Shown here: in pieces, positions 14,363 through 57,540 of the stretch
Layout: each line of letters opens with the position of its first letter
Numbering within the stretch: the first letter of the stretch is position 1
From: Paenibacillus lycopersici
GTDB taxonomy: Bacteria > Bacillota > Bacilli > Paenibacillales > Paenibacillaceae
Assembly: GCF_010119935.1 (NCBI RefSeq)
Contig: NZ_CP048209.1
Span: forward strand, 6,670,001-6,734,000
Direction: 5' to 3'
Length of the DNA: 64,000 bases
Position numbers and translations under genes: made by a program
Notes under the pieces: model-generated
Database searches by the model: none
Seen by the model: the letters and a program-made list of their open reading frames with translations, nothing else
What the model was told of the DNA's origin: nothing

Positions 14363-17300
14363 ATGGTTAATGTGCGTCCGACCGACGATCCGGCGCAACC
14401 CGGCTATTGGATCGGCTCGGGCCTGTCCTTGTTGTTCGATGCCGGTTTGAACGATGGAGCGGGCGGTTTCGTGACCTATAACGACCTGATTCGCATTTCC
14501 AAAGGCGCGACGCTGGAAGAATCCGAAGAATGCGACTGCACGGCCACCGTCACGCTGGACATCGACGCGAAGACGGCGGTCTTCCAGTATTATCCGAACC
14601 ATCCGCTGGACGTCGTGTTCGTGCTGGACGTGACCTCGAGCATGATGACCAATTCCAGCACCAAATTCGTGCAGGCGAAGCGGGCCATCATCTCGACCAT
14701 TATCCGGATGTGGGCGGTCAATCGCGACACCACGGTGACGATCGTGCCGTACGGCCGCGCGCCGTTCCTTCCGAACCAGGCGCCGCAGACGGGCTTCGCG
14801 TACGACTACCTCGGCACCCTGTTCACCTGGAAGCGCGGCTCCTCCTTGCCGGGCTATTACATCGGCCAAATTCTCGGCTACCGCAATCAAACCTTCGTCA
14901 GCGCCACGGACCTGACGGCGTTCGAGGCCCAATCCGTCCCGCTCGCCGCCAGCGCCCAGCTGAGCCTGTACAACTTCTACAATTATTACAAAATCAGATA
15001 CGGCGACATTTACGACGATGCCGGAAATCCGCTGCCCGACACGGTGCTGTCCAACTATATCGCGTCCGTCTACGACCCGGCCGACGCCGTCTACAACAAC
15101 AACCAGATCAAATCCGTTGCAAGCGGGATTCCGTTGACCCCGACGGAATTGGCTTACAGCATGAACGACGCCGGGTACGCGAACAATTCCATTCTGCAGA
15201 ATATGGTCTGGGCCATTCCCTATTCGGAGGACACCAATACGGAGGCAGGCATCCAGGCCGCCTACCGGTTGTTCAAGACGCCGGGCTTCGCCCAGTCGGA
15301 CGACATCCTGAGACGGGACGTTATCCTGATCACCGACGGTCAGGCGAACCGTTCCGTTAACCCGGCGTTCCCGAATGCGCTCGCGGCGCCCGGCGATACC
15401 GACGCCCAGTTCTTCCCGGTCCCCCCCGGCATCGCATGGCGCTACTTCACCGAGCTCCGGCAGACGCTGCCCACCTTGGTCGGCGAAATTTCCAACCGCT
15501 CGTCCACCTTCGAGGAAATCGCGCTCGCCGCGGCCCGGGCCGGTGCCGTCTCCGCCAGGCTCAAGGATCCCGCCGACGGCAACGCGTCCTTCTACGCGCT
15601 CGGCATCAATATCGACGCGCAGACGCCCGGACCGTACACGAGGCAGAATGTCATTCAGCTGCTGGAAAGCTGGGTTTCCGCCCCATCCTTCTTCCGGGAA
15701 GCCGATACGAGCGATCCCGAGTCCCAAATCGCGGATTTGCTGAACGCGCTCGTGCAGGATATTTTCCGGTTGTCCGCGGGCAGCCGCGTCGTCCTTCACG
15801 ATCAGATCAACACGGCCTTGTTCGCCTACGCGCCCGGCTCCATCCGGATTCGGGGCATCCGCGACGGGCTGCTGCTCAAATCGCCGAATCAGCCGGATAT
15901 CGTCGACCCGGCCGATCCGGATTTCACGGTCTACGCCAAGGCGCCGCTCCTGCCGGACGTCGACGACGGCACCGTCAGCGCCGATGGCGCGATCGTCATC
16001 GATTTCGGCGTCATGCCGCCGGGGCTCCTGTCGAGCACGGGCACGACGACAATTTCGCTCGCCTACGAGCTGCAGTCCAACCGGTTCGCCAACGGCAGCG
16101 AGCTGCACACCAATGTCGACGGACAGACGTATGTCCGCTTCACGGAGCCTGCCCATTTGGCCGCTTCCTCCAGCACGGTGGACTATACCGCGCCGTCGCG
16201 GGACATTTTCTTCCAGACGCCGATCGTCGCCTGCGCCTGCACGCCGGTCGCCTCGCTCGGCCTGCTGAAATTCCCCGACCGGGCGACGGCCGCGCCGGGG
16301 GAGGGGGTGACTTATACCATCGAAGCGACCAATACCGGAACGCTTCCGCTGACCAACGTGCTCGTGGACGATCCGCTGCTCGGCATTCGCTTCACGATCC
16401 CGCTGCTGGACATCCTCGAGACGTTCGAGCAGTCCTTCCCGTTCACGATCCCGGCGGGCACGCCGGACGGCCCGTTCCGCAACGTCGTGACCGCGACGGC
16501 CGCCGACCTGCCGGGTCCGGTCAACGCGGACGCCGTCATTCTGGTTGCCGGGGTACCCGCGCTGATCTTCCGCAAGCTCGCCGACAAGACGCAAGCCCGC
16601 CCGGGCGAGCTGGTCACGTTCACGCTGATTATCGAGAATACCGGCACGACGAACCTGACGCACGCGCGCATAACGGATGAGCTGCTCGGCATCGACACGA
16701 CCGTCGATCTGATCGAGCAGGGCGCCTCCGTGACGGCCGACTTCCCGTTCATCGTCCCCGAAGACGCGCCGATCGGCTCCACGATCGTCAACATCGCGAC
16801 CGTCGCGACCGATCAGCTGCCGCCGTTGACGGTCGGCGTCGTCGTCGAGGTCATTGCCGTGCCTGCGCTGGCGCTGTTCAAGGAGGTCGATCAGGCGGAA
16901 GCGCGGCCGGGCACGACCGTCACGTTCACGATTACCGCCGTCAACACGGGATCGGTCCCATTAACCAACGTCCGCATCGCGGACCCCGTTCTCGCGCTGG
17001 ATCAGACGGTTGCCGGCATTGCGCCCGGAGCGAGCGTGCCGATCGCGTTCCCGTTCCTCATACCGCTCGAGACGCCGCCGAAAAGGTACTTCAACACCGC
17101 GACGGCCGTGTCCGACCAGACCGGCCCCGTGGAAGCAAGCGCGGAAGTCACTGTGCTTCCCGCGCCGCAGCTGGGCGTGTCCAAGGTTCTTGACCGGCAG
17201 AGCGCGGCGCCGGGCGAGACGATCGCGTACCGGATCACGCTGGGCAACCTGGGCAACGTTGCGCTCGGACCGTTCCGGATCACGGACTCGCTGATCGGCA

Positions 17301-18709
17301 TCGACGAGGTTATACCGGGTCTTGCGGTCGGAGAAATCCTGACGCGAACCGTCACTTACGAGGTGCCGCCCGGCACGCTGTCCGGCTCCGTCATTCTCAA
17401 CCGGCTGATTGCCGCGTCGCCGGAGGCCGGGACGATCGAGGTCGAAGCCAGCGTAACGGTTGCCGGCACGACGCTTGCCATTGCGAAGACGCCGGACCGC
17501 GGCGTCGCCATGACGGGAGAGATCGTCGTCTACCGGTTGTCCGTGACGAACGTGTCGGCCGCGACCCAGACGAACGTGCTGCTCTCGGACGCGACGCTCG
17601 GCTACGCGGAGACGATTCCGGTATTGCTCGGCGGGGAGACCGTCGAGCGCGATCTGCCGTTCACGGTGCCTGCCGTGCCGGACGGCACCGTGATCCGCAA
17701 CGAGTTTACCTGCAGATCGGACCAATCGGGTCCGTTGAGCGCCGAAGCGGAAGTCGTCGTCTATGTCGAGCTCGCGGGCACCGTGCTGACGGCCGAGAAG
17801 CTGCCGGACGGCAATATCGCCGAGCCGGGCAGCACCGTCATCTATACCGTGCGCGTCACCAATATCGGCGGAGCAACGGCATCCGATATCATCGTCGCCG
17901 ATTCGCTGACGGGCGCGAGACTGCGCATTCCCGCGCTGGCGGCGGGCGAATCGGGCGTCGTCTCGTTCCCCTACGCCGTGCCGCCGGGAACCCCGCAGGG
18001 CACTGTGGTCCATAACCGCGTCGTCGCGACGTCGCCACAGGCCGATCCCGTGACAAGCGAAGCGGACGTCACCATCGGACTGCCGCATTTCTTCCTGCGG
18101 CTCGCCGAGGTCGTCGACCGGCCCGTGGCGGAGCCCGGGAGCGTCGTCTACTTCACCGTCACCGTCACGAACGTGTCGCCGTTCACGCTGACCAACGTGC
18201 GCGTATTCGAGGACCGGACGGCATTGAGCGCGGCGTTTCCGTCGCTTGCGCCGGGCGAAACCCGCTCGTTCGTCAGACCGTTCCGGATTCCGCCCGATGC
18301 GGTCGGCGGCACGACCTTCGTCAGCACCTCGACGGCCTTCTCGAACGAGACGCCGTTCGAGCAGGCGTCGGCGTCCGTCGTCACGTTCACGAATCCGGCG
18401 TTCACGATCGACGAAACGGTCGACCGCCCGGTCGTGCACGCCGGCGAAACGGTGTTCTTCACCATCACGGTCCGGAACGTCGGCAATGTCGACCTGATTC
18501 ATTTCCGGTTCCATGCGCCGCTGCTCCGCTTCGTGTACGTCACGGACGTCTTCCCGATCGGAGCCGAGATCGTCGTGCGCGTTCCGTTCCGGACGCCGGA
18601 CACGGACGAGGAAATCGTCATTCCGAGCCCGGTAACCGGCGAAGCGGACAATGCCGGGCCGAAACAAGCCGAAGCTTCCGTCAGGGTCATTCCCGACGAG
18701 GAAGAGTAA
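14363..18709 (+). CDS. VWA-domain protein with eight DUF11-type repeats
   Basis: A 1448-residue protein. A von Willebrand factor A domain spans about residues 80-470, with the MIDAS motif DVTSS at 89-93 (DxTxS form) and VILITDGQAN further on. From about residue 631 to the end there are eight repeats of about 101 residues, starting near 631, 732, 834, 935, 1036, 1141, 1244 and 1344. Each contains a D-R-x-x-A-x-P-G-E-x-V-x-Y/F-T-I pattern and a V-T-N-x-G-x-x-x-L-T-N-V segment, as in DUF11/conserved-repeat domains. Such proteins are usually surface adhesins or scaffold proteins, but no N-terminal signal peptide, LPxTG or S-layer domain is seen. A spore-coat or non-classically exported protein is one possibility. 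AGAGGGG precedes the ATG. Confidence 0.85.
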   Translation: MVNVRPTDDPAQPGYWIGSGLSLLFDAGLNDGAGGFVTYNDLIRISKGATLEESEECDCTATVTLDIDAKTAVFQYYPNHPLDVVFVLDVTSSMMTNSSTKFVQAKRAIISTIIRMWAVNRDTTVTIVPYGRAPFLPNQAPQTGFAYDYLGTLFTWKRGSSLPGYYIGQILGYRNQTFVSATDLTAFEAQSVPLAASAQLSLYNFYNYYKIRYGDIYDDAGNPLPDTVLSNYIASVYDPADAVYNNNQIKSVASGIPLTPTELAYSMNDAGYANNSILQNMVWAIPYSEDTNTEAGIQAAYRLFKTPGFAQSDDILRRDVILITDGQANRSVNPAFPNALAAPGDTDAQFFPVPPGIAWRYFTELRQTLPTLVGEISNRSSTFEEIALAAARAGAVSARLKDPADGNASFYALGINIDAQTPGPYTRQNVIQLLESWVSAPSFFREADTSDPESQIADLLNALVQDIFRLSAGSRVVLHDQINTALFAYAPGSIRIRGIRDGLLLKSPNQPDIVDPADPDFTVYAKAPLLPDVDDGTVSADGAIVIDFGVMPPGLLSSTGTTTISLAYELQSNRFANGSELHTNVDGQTYVRFTEPAHLAASSSTVDYTAPSRDIFFQTPIVACACTPVASLGLLKFPDRATAAPGEGVTYTIEATNTGTLPLTNVLVDDPLLGIRFTIPLLDILETFEQSFPFTIPAGTPDGPFRNVVTATAADLPGPVNADAVILVAGVPALIFRKLADKTQARPGELVTFTLIIENTGTTNLTHARITDELLGIDTTVDLIEQGASVTADFPFIVPEDAPIGSTIVNIATVATDQLPPLTVGVVVEVIAVPALALFKEVDQAEARPGTTVTFTITAVNTGSVPLTNVRIADPVLALDQTVAGIAPGASVPIAFPFLIPLETPPKRYFNTATAVSDQTGPVEASAEVTVLPAPQLGVSKVLDRQSAAPGETIAYRITLGNLGNVALGPFRITDSLIGIDEVIPGLAVGEILTRTVTYEVPPGTLSGSVILNRLIAASPEAGTIEVEASVTVAGTTLAIAKTPDRGVAMTGEIVVYRLSVTNVSAATQTNVLLSDATLGYAETIPVLLGGETVERDLPFTVPAVPDGTVIRNEFTCRSDQSGPLSAEAEVVVYVELAGTVLTAEKLPDGNIAEPGSTVIYTVRVTNIGGATASDIIVADSLTGARLRIPALAAGESGVVSFPYAVPPGTPQGTVVHNRVVATSPQADPVTSEADVTIGLPHFFLRLAEVVDRPVAEPGSVVYFTVTVTNVSPFTLTNVRVFEDRTALSAAFPSLAPGETRSFVRPFRIPPDAVGGTTFVSTSTAFSNETPFEQASASVVTFTNPAFTIDETVDRPVVHAGETVFFTITVRNVGNVDLIHFRFHAPLLRFVYVTDVFPIGAEIVVRVPFRTPDTDEEIVIPSPVTGEADNAGPKQAEASVRVIPDEEE

Positions 18710-21421: not shown

Positions 21422-21605
21422 GGCGGACAGAAGATCCGTTAATCGGACGCAATCAGACTATCGGGGCGAGCGATCGGACGCAGGATCCGTTAATGTCCCG
21501 AATGGGCATTTGAAAACATGCTCAGCGGCGGATATAACGAATCCCCTGTCCGCCATCACACGAAAAGACGCGATCATGAAGGGAATAACGAATCTCCTGT
21601 CCGCC
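21422..21605. repeat. 51-bp-phased dyad repeat element, copy 1
   Basis: Two direct motif copies start at 21424 (CGGACAGAAGATCCGTTAA) and 21475 (CGGACGCAGGATCCGTTAA). Two inverted copies end at 21552 and 21603; their complements read CGGACAGGGGATTCGTTAT and CGGACAGGAGATTCGTTAT. Both direct and inverted pairs are exactly 51 bp apart. The whole is about 180 bp with dyad symmetry, so the outer and inner pairs could form nested stems. The spacers between motifs are not conserved. A second element with the same architecture is at 57358-57540. No coding sequence. Confidence 0.85.
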
Positions 21606-21619
21606 CCCTCCCTTTCACC

Positions 21620-21683
21620 GGACGTACTGCGACCGAGCCGTCATGAAGGCGGCTCGGTCAAAACGGTACGTGCAGTGCAGTCC
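21620..21683. other. structured inverted repeat next to the dyad element
   Basis: A perfect 10-bp stem GACCGAGCCG/CGGCTCGGTC (21631-21640 and 21650-21659) is enclosed by partly complementary arms (GGACGTACTGC and GCAGTGCAGTCC). It has no U-run on either strand, so it is not an ordinary terminator. Function unknown. Confidence 0.5.
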
Positions 21684-21805
21684 ACGCCGGCGAAGCGGCT
21701 GCCGGATCTGTCCGCGCTCCAGGGCTCAAGTTGTCGCGAGCCTGCTCGAATCATCCCGGTGCGCTTATGCACCCGATAGCCGAATTGGGGGGTTCTCTAC
21801 AATCC
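21684..21805. other. intergenic, no gene seen
   Basis: This is the remainder of the roughly 580-bp gap between the ECF41 gene and the chemoreceptor gene. Apart from the repeat element, the hairpin and the terminator listed separately, I see no supported gene. Confidence 0.4.
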
Positions 21806-21843
21806 GAAGAAGGCGCCGGATCCAACGATCCGGCGCCTTCTTC
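21806..21843. terminator. bidirectional terminator between convergent genes
   Basis: A perfect 17-bp stem (GAAGAAGGCGCCGGATC) surrounds the 4-nt loop CAAC. It lies 60 nt after the stop codon of the minus-strand chemoreceptor gene and ends in CTTCTTC on either strand. Confidence 0.75.
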
Positions 21844-28196: not shown

Positions 28197-28219
28197 GAAA
28201 GTAATCGAATACCCGTATA

Positions 28220-28308
28220 TTCACTAGGGGAGTCTGATGACTGAGACGCGAAACCGATTCGCGGACCCTTGGAACCTGATCTGGGTGATGCCAGCGTAGG
28301 GAAGTGGA
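28220..28308 (+). ncRNA. TPP riboswitch (THI element)
   Basis: The conserved THI-box blocks are present in order: AGGGGAGTCTG, CTGAGACGCG, GACCCTTGGAACCTGATC, and GGGTGATGCCAGCGTAGGGA. The P1 stem closes with TTCACT and AGTGGA. It precedes the thiZXYMDE operon and a terminator, so TPP binding is expected to shut off transcription. Confidence 0.96.
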
Positions 28309-28350
28309 TGGATACCGTATGAAACGCCGCGATGCGTTCGATATACCGGA

Positions 28351-57072: not shown

Positions 57073-57357
57073 CGTTAACTTTTGGCCGGGATTATGATGC
57101 GTTGCGATTGCCGTTATTTTACCCTGCCGCTGCGGAATCATTCCTTCATTCCTTCTTGTCCCCGTCTCCCCTGGGGCTGTCCCATATGTCATCGTTAGAT
57201 GACTGTGGGAAGCCCCTTCTTAAGAATCGGTTTCTTCACCCGATCCGCAGGCTGTTGAAAAGATGGTTGGGTAGAGGCGGCCCACGGCTGACAACGTTAC
57301 CGCTAAGGCAACCTGCATCGTCAGACGCGTACCTCCTCCACGTACAGACATAGGCAG
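57073..57357. other. intergenic, no gene seen
   Basis: Between the MerR promoter and the dyad repeat element there is no protein-like frame with a ribosome binding site. The region includes an imperfect hairpin around 57165-57215 (CTGGGGCTGTCCCA). Confidence 0.4.
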
Positions 57358-57540
57358 GCGGACAGACGATCCGCTATTTGATCAAAATCGGCGTGTTCGA
57401 GGAAGCGATCGGACATCAGATGCGTTATGGGCCCCGGCATGCAGCAACAAACCGGTTTTCGGCAGAAATAGCGCATCTCCTGTCCGGCAGCGTGCAATAA
57501 ATCGATACATGCGAACAAATAAAGGATCTCTTGTCCGATT
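57358..57540. repeat. 51-bp-phased dyad repeat element, copy 2
   Basis: Direct motifs start at 57359 (CGGACAGACGATCCGCTATT) and 57410 (CGGACATCAGATGCGTTAT). Inverted motifs end at 57486 and 57537; their complements read CGGACAGGAGATGCGCTAT and CGGACAAGAGATCCTTTAT. The two direct copies and the two inverted copies are each exactly 51 bp apart. Outer copies share GATCC...TATTTG and inner copies share GATGCG-Y-TAT, so partners across the dyad covary. Total about 180 bp, the same architecture as the element at 21422-21605. Confidence 0.85.

Follow-up and report, generated by a model that had tools for sequence, protein, structure and literature searches.

What kind of element is made of four short motif copies, two direct and two inverted, held at a 51-bp phase in the DNA of Paenibacillus lycopersici? 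A sequence-only reading of this locus described the arrangement without a name for it and offered two options: a nested stem in RNA, or a set of sites bound by protein on one face of the DNA. Here, we describe a widespread four-site DNA element whose geometry is constant, whose letters vary and which is tied to an undescribed gene family. We put at roughly two in three the probability that the element is a dispersed, gene-less copy of a two-part system, a protein and its cognate quartet of sites, acting by the steps proposed below.

The element in the window

The window is the whole stretch of DNA that was analysed, 64 kb (64,000 nucleotides) of the P. lycopersici genome. We take as the motif CGGAC-N8-CGTTA and as a quartet two direct and two inverted sites with starts 51/59/51 bp apart. 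Two quartets occur in the window, with starts 51/60/51 bp apart in element 1 and 51/59/51 bp in element 2:

21424..21441, + strand: element 1, site m1, a match to the motif in the motif search
21475..21492, + strand: element 1, site m2, 51 bp from m1 (motif search)
21493..21534, no strand: element 1, centre of 42 bp, vs 41 bp in 35/38 elements of this genome
21535..21552, - strand: element 1, site m3, inverted (motif search)
21586..21603, - strand: element 1, site m4, inverted (motif search)
21631..21659, + strand: predicted hairpin GACCGAGCCG...CGGCTCGGTC in the 3' tail of a larger module of this genome, a tail homologous among copies
21793..21806, + strand: right terminal repeat TTCTCTACAATCCG of that module (repeat search)
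21807..21843, + strand: terminator-like stem, judged by sequence, immediately outside the right terminal repeat
57248..57261, + strand: element 2, left terminal repeat CAGGCTGTTGAAAA (repeat search)
57359..57376, + strand: element 2, site m1 (motif search)
57410..57427, + strand: element 2, site m2 (motif search)
57469..57486, - strand: element 2, site m3 (motif search)
57520..57537, - strand: element 2, site m4 (motif search)

The two direct and two inverted copies at a 51-bp phase are thus where the sequence-only reading had placed them. At up to 3 mismatches the window holds 8 motif matches, vs a mean of 0.65 and a maximum of 2 in shuffled sequence. No left terminal repeat was found for the element 1 copy at up to 3 mismatches. 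The spacers had also been called unlike one another, which needs correcting for this genome: other copies can be aligned to the window element along ~330-420 bp at ~67-75%, so that its spacers are not wholly unlike. Elsewhere in the window, an Rfam search places a TPP riboswitch at 28216-28319 (+, 78.6 bits).

Copies across the genome

The P. lycopersici genome (G000, one 6.74-Mb contig) contains 353+359 single-motif matches at up to 3 mismatches, vs 22+17 for the reversed pattern, and 137 m2-N41-m3 dyads, vs 0 for the reversed control. Complete quartets were sampled in 41 sources, namely the window and forty 20-kb stretches, 20 of them picked for matches and 20 not. This sample gave 38 complete ++-- quartets (2 in the window, 31 in picked and 5 in unpicked stretches). 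With a finder that tolerated a few bp either way around the expected spacings, the centre measured 41 bp in 35/38 and 42 bp in 3/38, and the outer spacers 32-34 bp in 38/38. Two possibilities that the sequence-only reading had set against itself, a motif scattered at random spacings and orientations or just two loci from one recent duplication, both fail here: spacings are non-random and the loci go far beyond two.

By a simple codon-usage caller, 37/38 of these elements lie outside any predicted gene. Convergent gaps are over-represented among them (16/38 vs 51/283) and divergent gaps under-represented (2/38 vs 62/283). Since spacings of 50 and 52 bp also occur often, the 51-bp unit was not taken to be coding. 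In one sampled stretch (L030, G000:C1:250001-270000), 5,000 bases are masked as N in the record of the genome.

Distribution and conservation in relatives

Among 392 genomes of the order, 77 carry the dyad, at 1 to 137 copies and with 0 for the reversed control in every genome; within genera its presence is patchy. Relatives were also searched with a model of the direct pair alone. This exact search retrieved 44 stretches of GTDB contigs, belonging to P. humicus, several other Paenibacillus, Cohnella, Saccharibacillus, Bacillus suaedae, B. litorisediminis, Evansella, Halalkalibacter and Calidifontibacillus. The inverted half was not part of the query, and 38/44 stretches hold the complete ++-- quartet with a 58-60-bp middle, that is, the same layout. 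In some arrays one side, and only one, continues with further units at 50-51 bp. In other places (L065 4652-5231, L196, G180 C19) entire elements stand in head-to-tail repeats, two or three times. Two Saccharibacillus loci (L083 ~1881-2075, L086 ~1830-2020) carry a variant quartet with perfect palindromes. One side has forms such as CTAACGGACATACGATCCGTTAG and the opposite side CTAACGGATCGAnATGACGCTTAG, and their order seems to be reversed.

Orthologous loci were compared between P. humicus (G054) and a relative (G074), where 14/20 G074 stretches aligned to one of 20 G054 stretches and a fifteenth pair was added. Complete quartets stand in both species in 14/15 pairs. Mean identity is 96% in sites, 83% in spacers and 69% in 150-bp flanks, with random sequence reaching 58% in the same alignment. 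Sites and spacing are conserved at these loci. The pairs L135/L148 (spacers 0.98, flanks 0.79) and L141/L155 (0.94 and 0.99) have hardly changed and are of little information; in L141/L155 one of the two species shows a 45-bp spacing. Places matching two G074 loci were retrieved from G042 (both) and G399 (one), and these loci had no motif. Intergenic regions of P. humicus and G074 contain fast-changing minisatellites (e.g. L128, L129, L142), which frequently makes it difficult to align orthologous gaps between genes of ~95% identity.

DNA shape and RNA structure

Is the quartet read as DNA or as RNA? In 92 elements from other genomes, A/T maxima in the spacers recur at a period of 10.1 bp, with a power of 2.42 vs 0.24 when shuffled (ten times). 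The same phasing appears in 7 CGA-type and 12 distant gene-linked arrays (1.29 and 1.38 vs 0.24). Binding of protein on one DNA face, the second option of the sequence-only reading, fits this phasing, the fixed 51-bp phase, the near-palindromic sites and the change of site letters with an adjacent winged-helix protein (below).

A structured RNA, in which m1 would pair with m4 and m2 with m3 as a nested stem, is suggested by the inverted layout and the near-palindromic sites. Among related elements, the variable positions 7-9 match within a side and fall below permutation across the dyad: 0.186 vs 0.420 permuted in G000, an effect to which an asymmetric subfamily present in both orientations may add, and 0.535 vs 0.625 in the P. 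humicus group. A pooled many-genome group goes in the opposite direction (0.431 vs 0.311 permuted), which is what common genome-specific motifs would produce. The one-sided extra units also speak against a stem, and no Rfam family matches the element at its gathering score; the m2-m3 stretch gave a sub-threshold mir-5595 match in L049 and L061, with one more in L217 (30.8 bits vs a cut-off of 100). We therefore let the RNA option go as highly improbable, the least probable of the readings weighed here.

A gene beside the element

An all-against-all comparison of open reading frames near elements (88 loci) yielded one recurrent protein. It ends 24-70 bp before the element in Halalkalibacter (L090), G103 (L176) and G079 (L196), at 71-74% mutual identity; in P. 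humicus the element lies ~770 bp 3' of the gene, with minisatellites between. To score this association without regard to the motif, two direct and two inverted 23-mers at ~51/59/51 were sought in 480-bp flanks, with a threshold of >42. The score exceeds 42 on the 3' side of the gene at 44/51 distinct homolog loci and on the 5' side at 1/51, in a set that includes the three discovery loci and many genomes chosen as element carriers. Composition shuffles stayed at or below 40, and 30/600 real windows of the P. lycopersici genome passed 42, the twelve best of these being an N-run, true elements or tandem repeats.

Most misses (scores of 42 or less) can be placed: a contig end (L210), an element 5' (L214) or further 3' (L217, L219), a score of 42 with visible sites (L233), and a broken gene with half an element (L235). 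At L237 a widened search also brought up no quartet. Later loci passed on the 3' side in 6/6 cases (viral contig L255, score 55; L256, L260, L261, L282, L284), with L256 also scoring 48 on the 5' side and L283 left out of the count as a repeat of L236. One partial-domain match (L263) scored 37, and six others came without 3' sequence to score. In a last set of 20 loci, the score passed in 16/20 on the 3' side and 6/20 on the 5' side. The four 3' misses are an element starting at ~+435 (L299), elements 5' of the gene (L311, L312) and, by eye, diverged sites (L315). Several scores of 43-48 (e.g. L238, L240, L242, L252) are weak or doubtful, in minisatellite-rich DNA. On inspection, five loci of distant homologs in the first set (L236, L241, L245, L246, L254) carry tandem palindrome arrays at 51-52 bp in place of dyads, and so does L317 of the last set, whose motif is that of L254.

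Gene and dyad also go together by genome. Among 66 picked genomes, a close homolog (E≤1e-75) was found in 22/22 with at least 2 dyads, 2/3 with one and 18/40 with none; G010, also among the 66, was outside the dyad survey. Several of the 18 dyad-less genomes with a close homolog carry variant elements of their own.

Upstream of 32/51 genes (L205-L254), at ~80-190 bp, stands a leader, CGTGAAGMACACGCCGCTT (up to 2 mismatches), usually followed by an intrinsic-terminator-like stem. It could be an attenuator or a small RNA. It has no Rfam match and is absent from the TTGCAC and GTGGAAAA clades even at 5 mismatches.

The protein family

The protein has ~214 residues; its N-terminal domain is PD-(D/E)xK-like, and its C-terminal part is a winged helix. 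The family protein P0001 finds nothing above cut-off in Pfam (best E 0.017, under every cut-off) and no match in NCBIfam. An alignment of 35 relatives, at 28-76% identity to P0001, has D71 and H91 invariant and E84 nearly so, with position 86 mostly Q/K/D and once H; the close clade has ExQ instead of ExK at the expected catalytic place. An AF2 model built from three sequences has a mean pLDDT of 55.6, is poor in the nuclease part and is trustworthy at best in the winged helix. In this low-confidence model the strand/helix order of the N-terminal part fits a PD-(D/E)xK fold. The C-terminal part is HHH-EE (H154-166 H172-179 H183-195 E199-203 E210-213; pLDDT block means 62-92). This order with its recognition helix, of which residue 184 is the second residue in the model, and weak matches to HTH families among the 35 members place the protein among winged-helix proteins. 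A PDB search gave 74 matches at E≤1; the 60 listed fall on the C-terminal wHTH, a few from ~residue 127, and none of these 60 covers the nuclease core.

An anti-phage defence system was rejected on a search of the PADLOC models, which gave weak matches only among the 35 members: SoFic in 20/35 (best 1.9e-4), lying at residues 170-212, the wHTH, in member 1, and PDC-M28B in one member (2e-4). Carriage by phages or plasmids was likewise rejected. A tblastn search with P0001 found 0/50,697 phage records and 1/72,556 plasmid records, the latter a 2.7-Mb Paenibacillus replicon at 32% identity, and four scans of viral contigs gave one with a homolog (L255). In a survey of 398 genomes of the phylum, 26 match, approximately at full length only in G000, G033, G048, G044, G056 and the outlying G549; the other matches are partial, several within 750-860-aa frames. 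The family therefore looks narrow, with Halalkalibacter the only member of the Bacillaceae searched by name.

The motif changes with the protein

The layout stays constant while the motif varies with the protein, as CGGAC, CGAAC, TTGCACTTTGTACAA or GTGGAAAA. The sites of P0001 relatives are CGGAC or CGAAC (close-clade motif TAACGRAC-N8-CNYTATT), those of one distant clade of the TTGCACTTTGTACAA type and those of another of the GTGGAAAA type. Quartets of the TTGCACTTTGTACAA or GTGGAAAA type, still at 51/59/51, accompany homologs of as little as 29-33% identity. The viral-contig copy reads AAGAGTCT...AGACTCTT and that of G549 TAAGCCCA...TGGGCTTA. When motif labels, assigned by hand, are placed on the protein tree, they need 8 changes vs 21.8 when shuffled.

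Within the close clade, residue 184 is R/K with CGG in 34/37 loci and Q/T/A/S with a non-G base in 16/16. The three R exceptions are L299, L306 (automatic reading in the wrong register) and L311 (3' quartet not real), site readings are unsure for L315, L252 and L304, and at L301 (Q) the element on the 3' side is CGA, that on the 5' side CGG. The apparent covariation of residue 184 with base 3 of the site is suggestive only, because the tree holds just 2-3 independent changes (sign test p 0.5).

Dispersed sites also follow the gene type. CGAAC-type sites number 7-21, gene-linked ones included, in 6/6 same-genus genomes with that gene type, whereas the two genomes of the same genus that lack it have 2 and 0 (reversed control 0); P. 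lycopersici has 2 and P. humicus 0. A strict pattern for dispersed TTGCAC-type dyads matched 2 in 21 genomes, one of them adjoining a gene.

The larger module in this genome

In P. lycopersici, the quartet often sits inside a larger module without coding capacity. TIR-like ends CAGGCTGTCGAGAA...TTCTCAACAATCTG flank 20/38 copies on both sides under a loose pattern, for a total of 311-561 bp. By eye, ~10 module copies have matching terminator stems outside both ends. In L009, L012, L013, L014, L021, L022, L026 and L028, near-identical stems flank the TIR-bounded module to its left and right. These stems look like apparent target duplications of whole terminators (~20-30 bp), as if the module had inserted into terminators and doubled each. 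IS110 relatives are known to enter palindromic repeats. One copy (L026, G000:C1:3040001-3060000, 15702-17904) is interrupted between m1 and m2 by a 448-aa open reading frame, which we take to resemble an IS110-family transposase.

These features would suit a MITE moved by a TIR transposase, with the four sites as subterminal transposase sites. A 14-mer resembling the TIR lies within 350 bp of 27/36 own quartets, but near only 9/84 quartets of other genomes (P. humicus loci partly double-counted), on which ground a TIR transposon was rejected as a general explanation. Moreover, the quartets stand 3' of a gene that is not a transposase. A MITE is thus very improbable as an account of the element, if somewhat less so than a structured RNA.

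In P. lycopersici, both close gene copies (n=2) are broken, one matching to ~residue 117 only and then running into the right half of an element, the other having an in-frame TGA; two intact copies are distant (32-33% identity). Since the close copies are broken, the many elements of this genome are probably relics that were also multiplied inside the TIR-bounded module, which may have contributed more than the gene to their number.

A proposed two-part system and a static alternative

How could one protein serve a quartet and its scattered copies? In the two-part system that we favour, the cognate quartet is a set of 23-bp near-palindromic sites at 51/59/51 bp, normally just 3' of the gene. 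A protein dimer would bind each site through its winged helix, and residue 184 of the recognition helix would tell CGG from CGA at base 3. Four dimers on one face would curve ~180 bp of DNA into a compact complex, which would bring the nuclease-like domains together. The complex could then act in trans on dispersed elements, keeping or spreading them, the role proposed for RAYTs towards REPINs. That is, we infer direct binding, wrapping, nuclease action and transposition or spreading by the protein from layout, phasing and association.

The same protein could instead bend DNA at a static architectural or regulatory site, its nuclease dead or silent, with quartets retained to fold the chromosome, to manage supercoiling or to insulate 3' ends. 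Sites and spacing kept at the orthologous G054/G074 loci, the intergenic position of 37/38 own elements with convergent gaps enriched and divergent ones avoided, the ExQ of the close clade and the 10.1-bp A/T phasing would all suit such a site. It accounts poorly for sporadic occurrence within genera at copy numbers from 1 to 137, for an element that usually adjoins its own gene version, and for neighbouring units on one side that have variants in common. We consider a static site unlikely, albeit the most serious of the alternatives to the two-part system.

Comparison with known systems

None of the libraries searched (Pfam, NCBIfam, Rfam, PADLOC) describes the element or the protein, and the listings of freely available literature gave no description of either. 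Several known systems share parts of the picture. Among REase-fold proteins, the Pfam families DUF559 and MTES_1575 weakly match 10/35 (best 1.4e-4) and 8/35 (best 4e-6) family members, whereas P0001 has neither at E≤1; to our knowledge, a C-terminal wHTH and a linked quartet are part of neither family. The BIME mosaics of E. coli are fixed-length modules of direct and inverted palindromic units; our element is alike in this and differs in sites, geometry and protein partner. REPs are short repeats with a GTAG-type tag that form hairpins in single-stranded DNA. That tag, named in the title of PMC3733652, was not seen by eye in the close-clade motif. The same paper names bcr1, an example of a MITE. 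The own-genome module is similar to such MITEs in its TIR-like ends and lack of coding capacity, whereas the quartet in other genomes mostly lacks TIR-like ends.

REPIN/RAYT is among the nearest likenesses. According to PMC3116915, each REP type adjoins its own trans-acting gene. Here, too, dispersed extragenic palindromic repeats are paired in inverted orientation, motif type tracks gene type, and each four-site repeat type adjoins its own putative trans-acting gene, but for a different protein: PD-(D/E)xK-like with a wHTH, and with four sites at 51/59/51 where a REPIN is a two-REP hairpin. RAYT/IS200 was rejected as the partner, the Y1 transposase (PF01797) having 0 matches in G000, G010, G006, G054 and G074, as well as in G053; across 20 genomes it occurs in 6, including G039, G117 and G042, which have CGGAC sites or dyads. 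In outline, then, the system would resemble REPIN/RAYT in its logic, with an unrelated protein that fails the defining Y1 test.

A wider claim, which we advance tentatively and with less confidence than the two-part system itself, is that of a new class of selfish repeats in bacteria: PD-(D/E)xK-wHTH families, each with its own evolving palindromic site, would recognise a four-site wrap at 51/59/51 phased at 10.1 bp and thereby maintain gene-less copies and spread these through the chromosome, as a Paenibacillaceae counterpart of REPIN/RAYT with an unrelated enzyme. A protein family without a library name stands tens to hundreds of bp from an element whose spacing is constant while its letters change. 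This makes co-evolution of recognition helix and site directly testable in a natural set of matched protein/site pairs. If the protein acts in trans as proposed, the system would be a second, independent example, beside REPIN/RAYT, of dispersed bacterial repeats tied to a single trans-acting gene.
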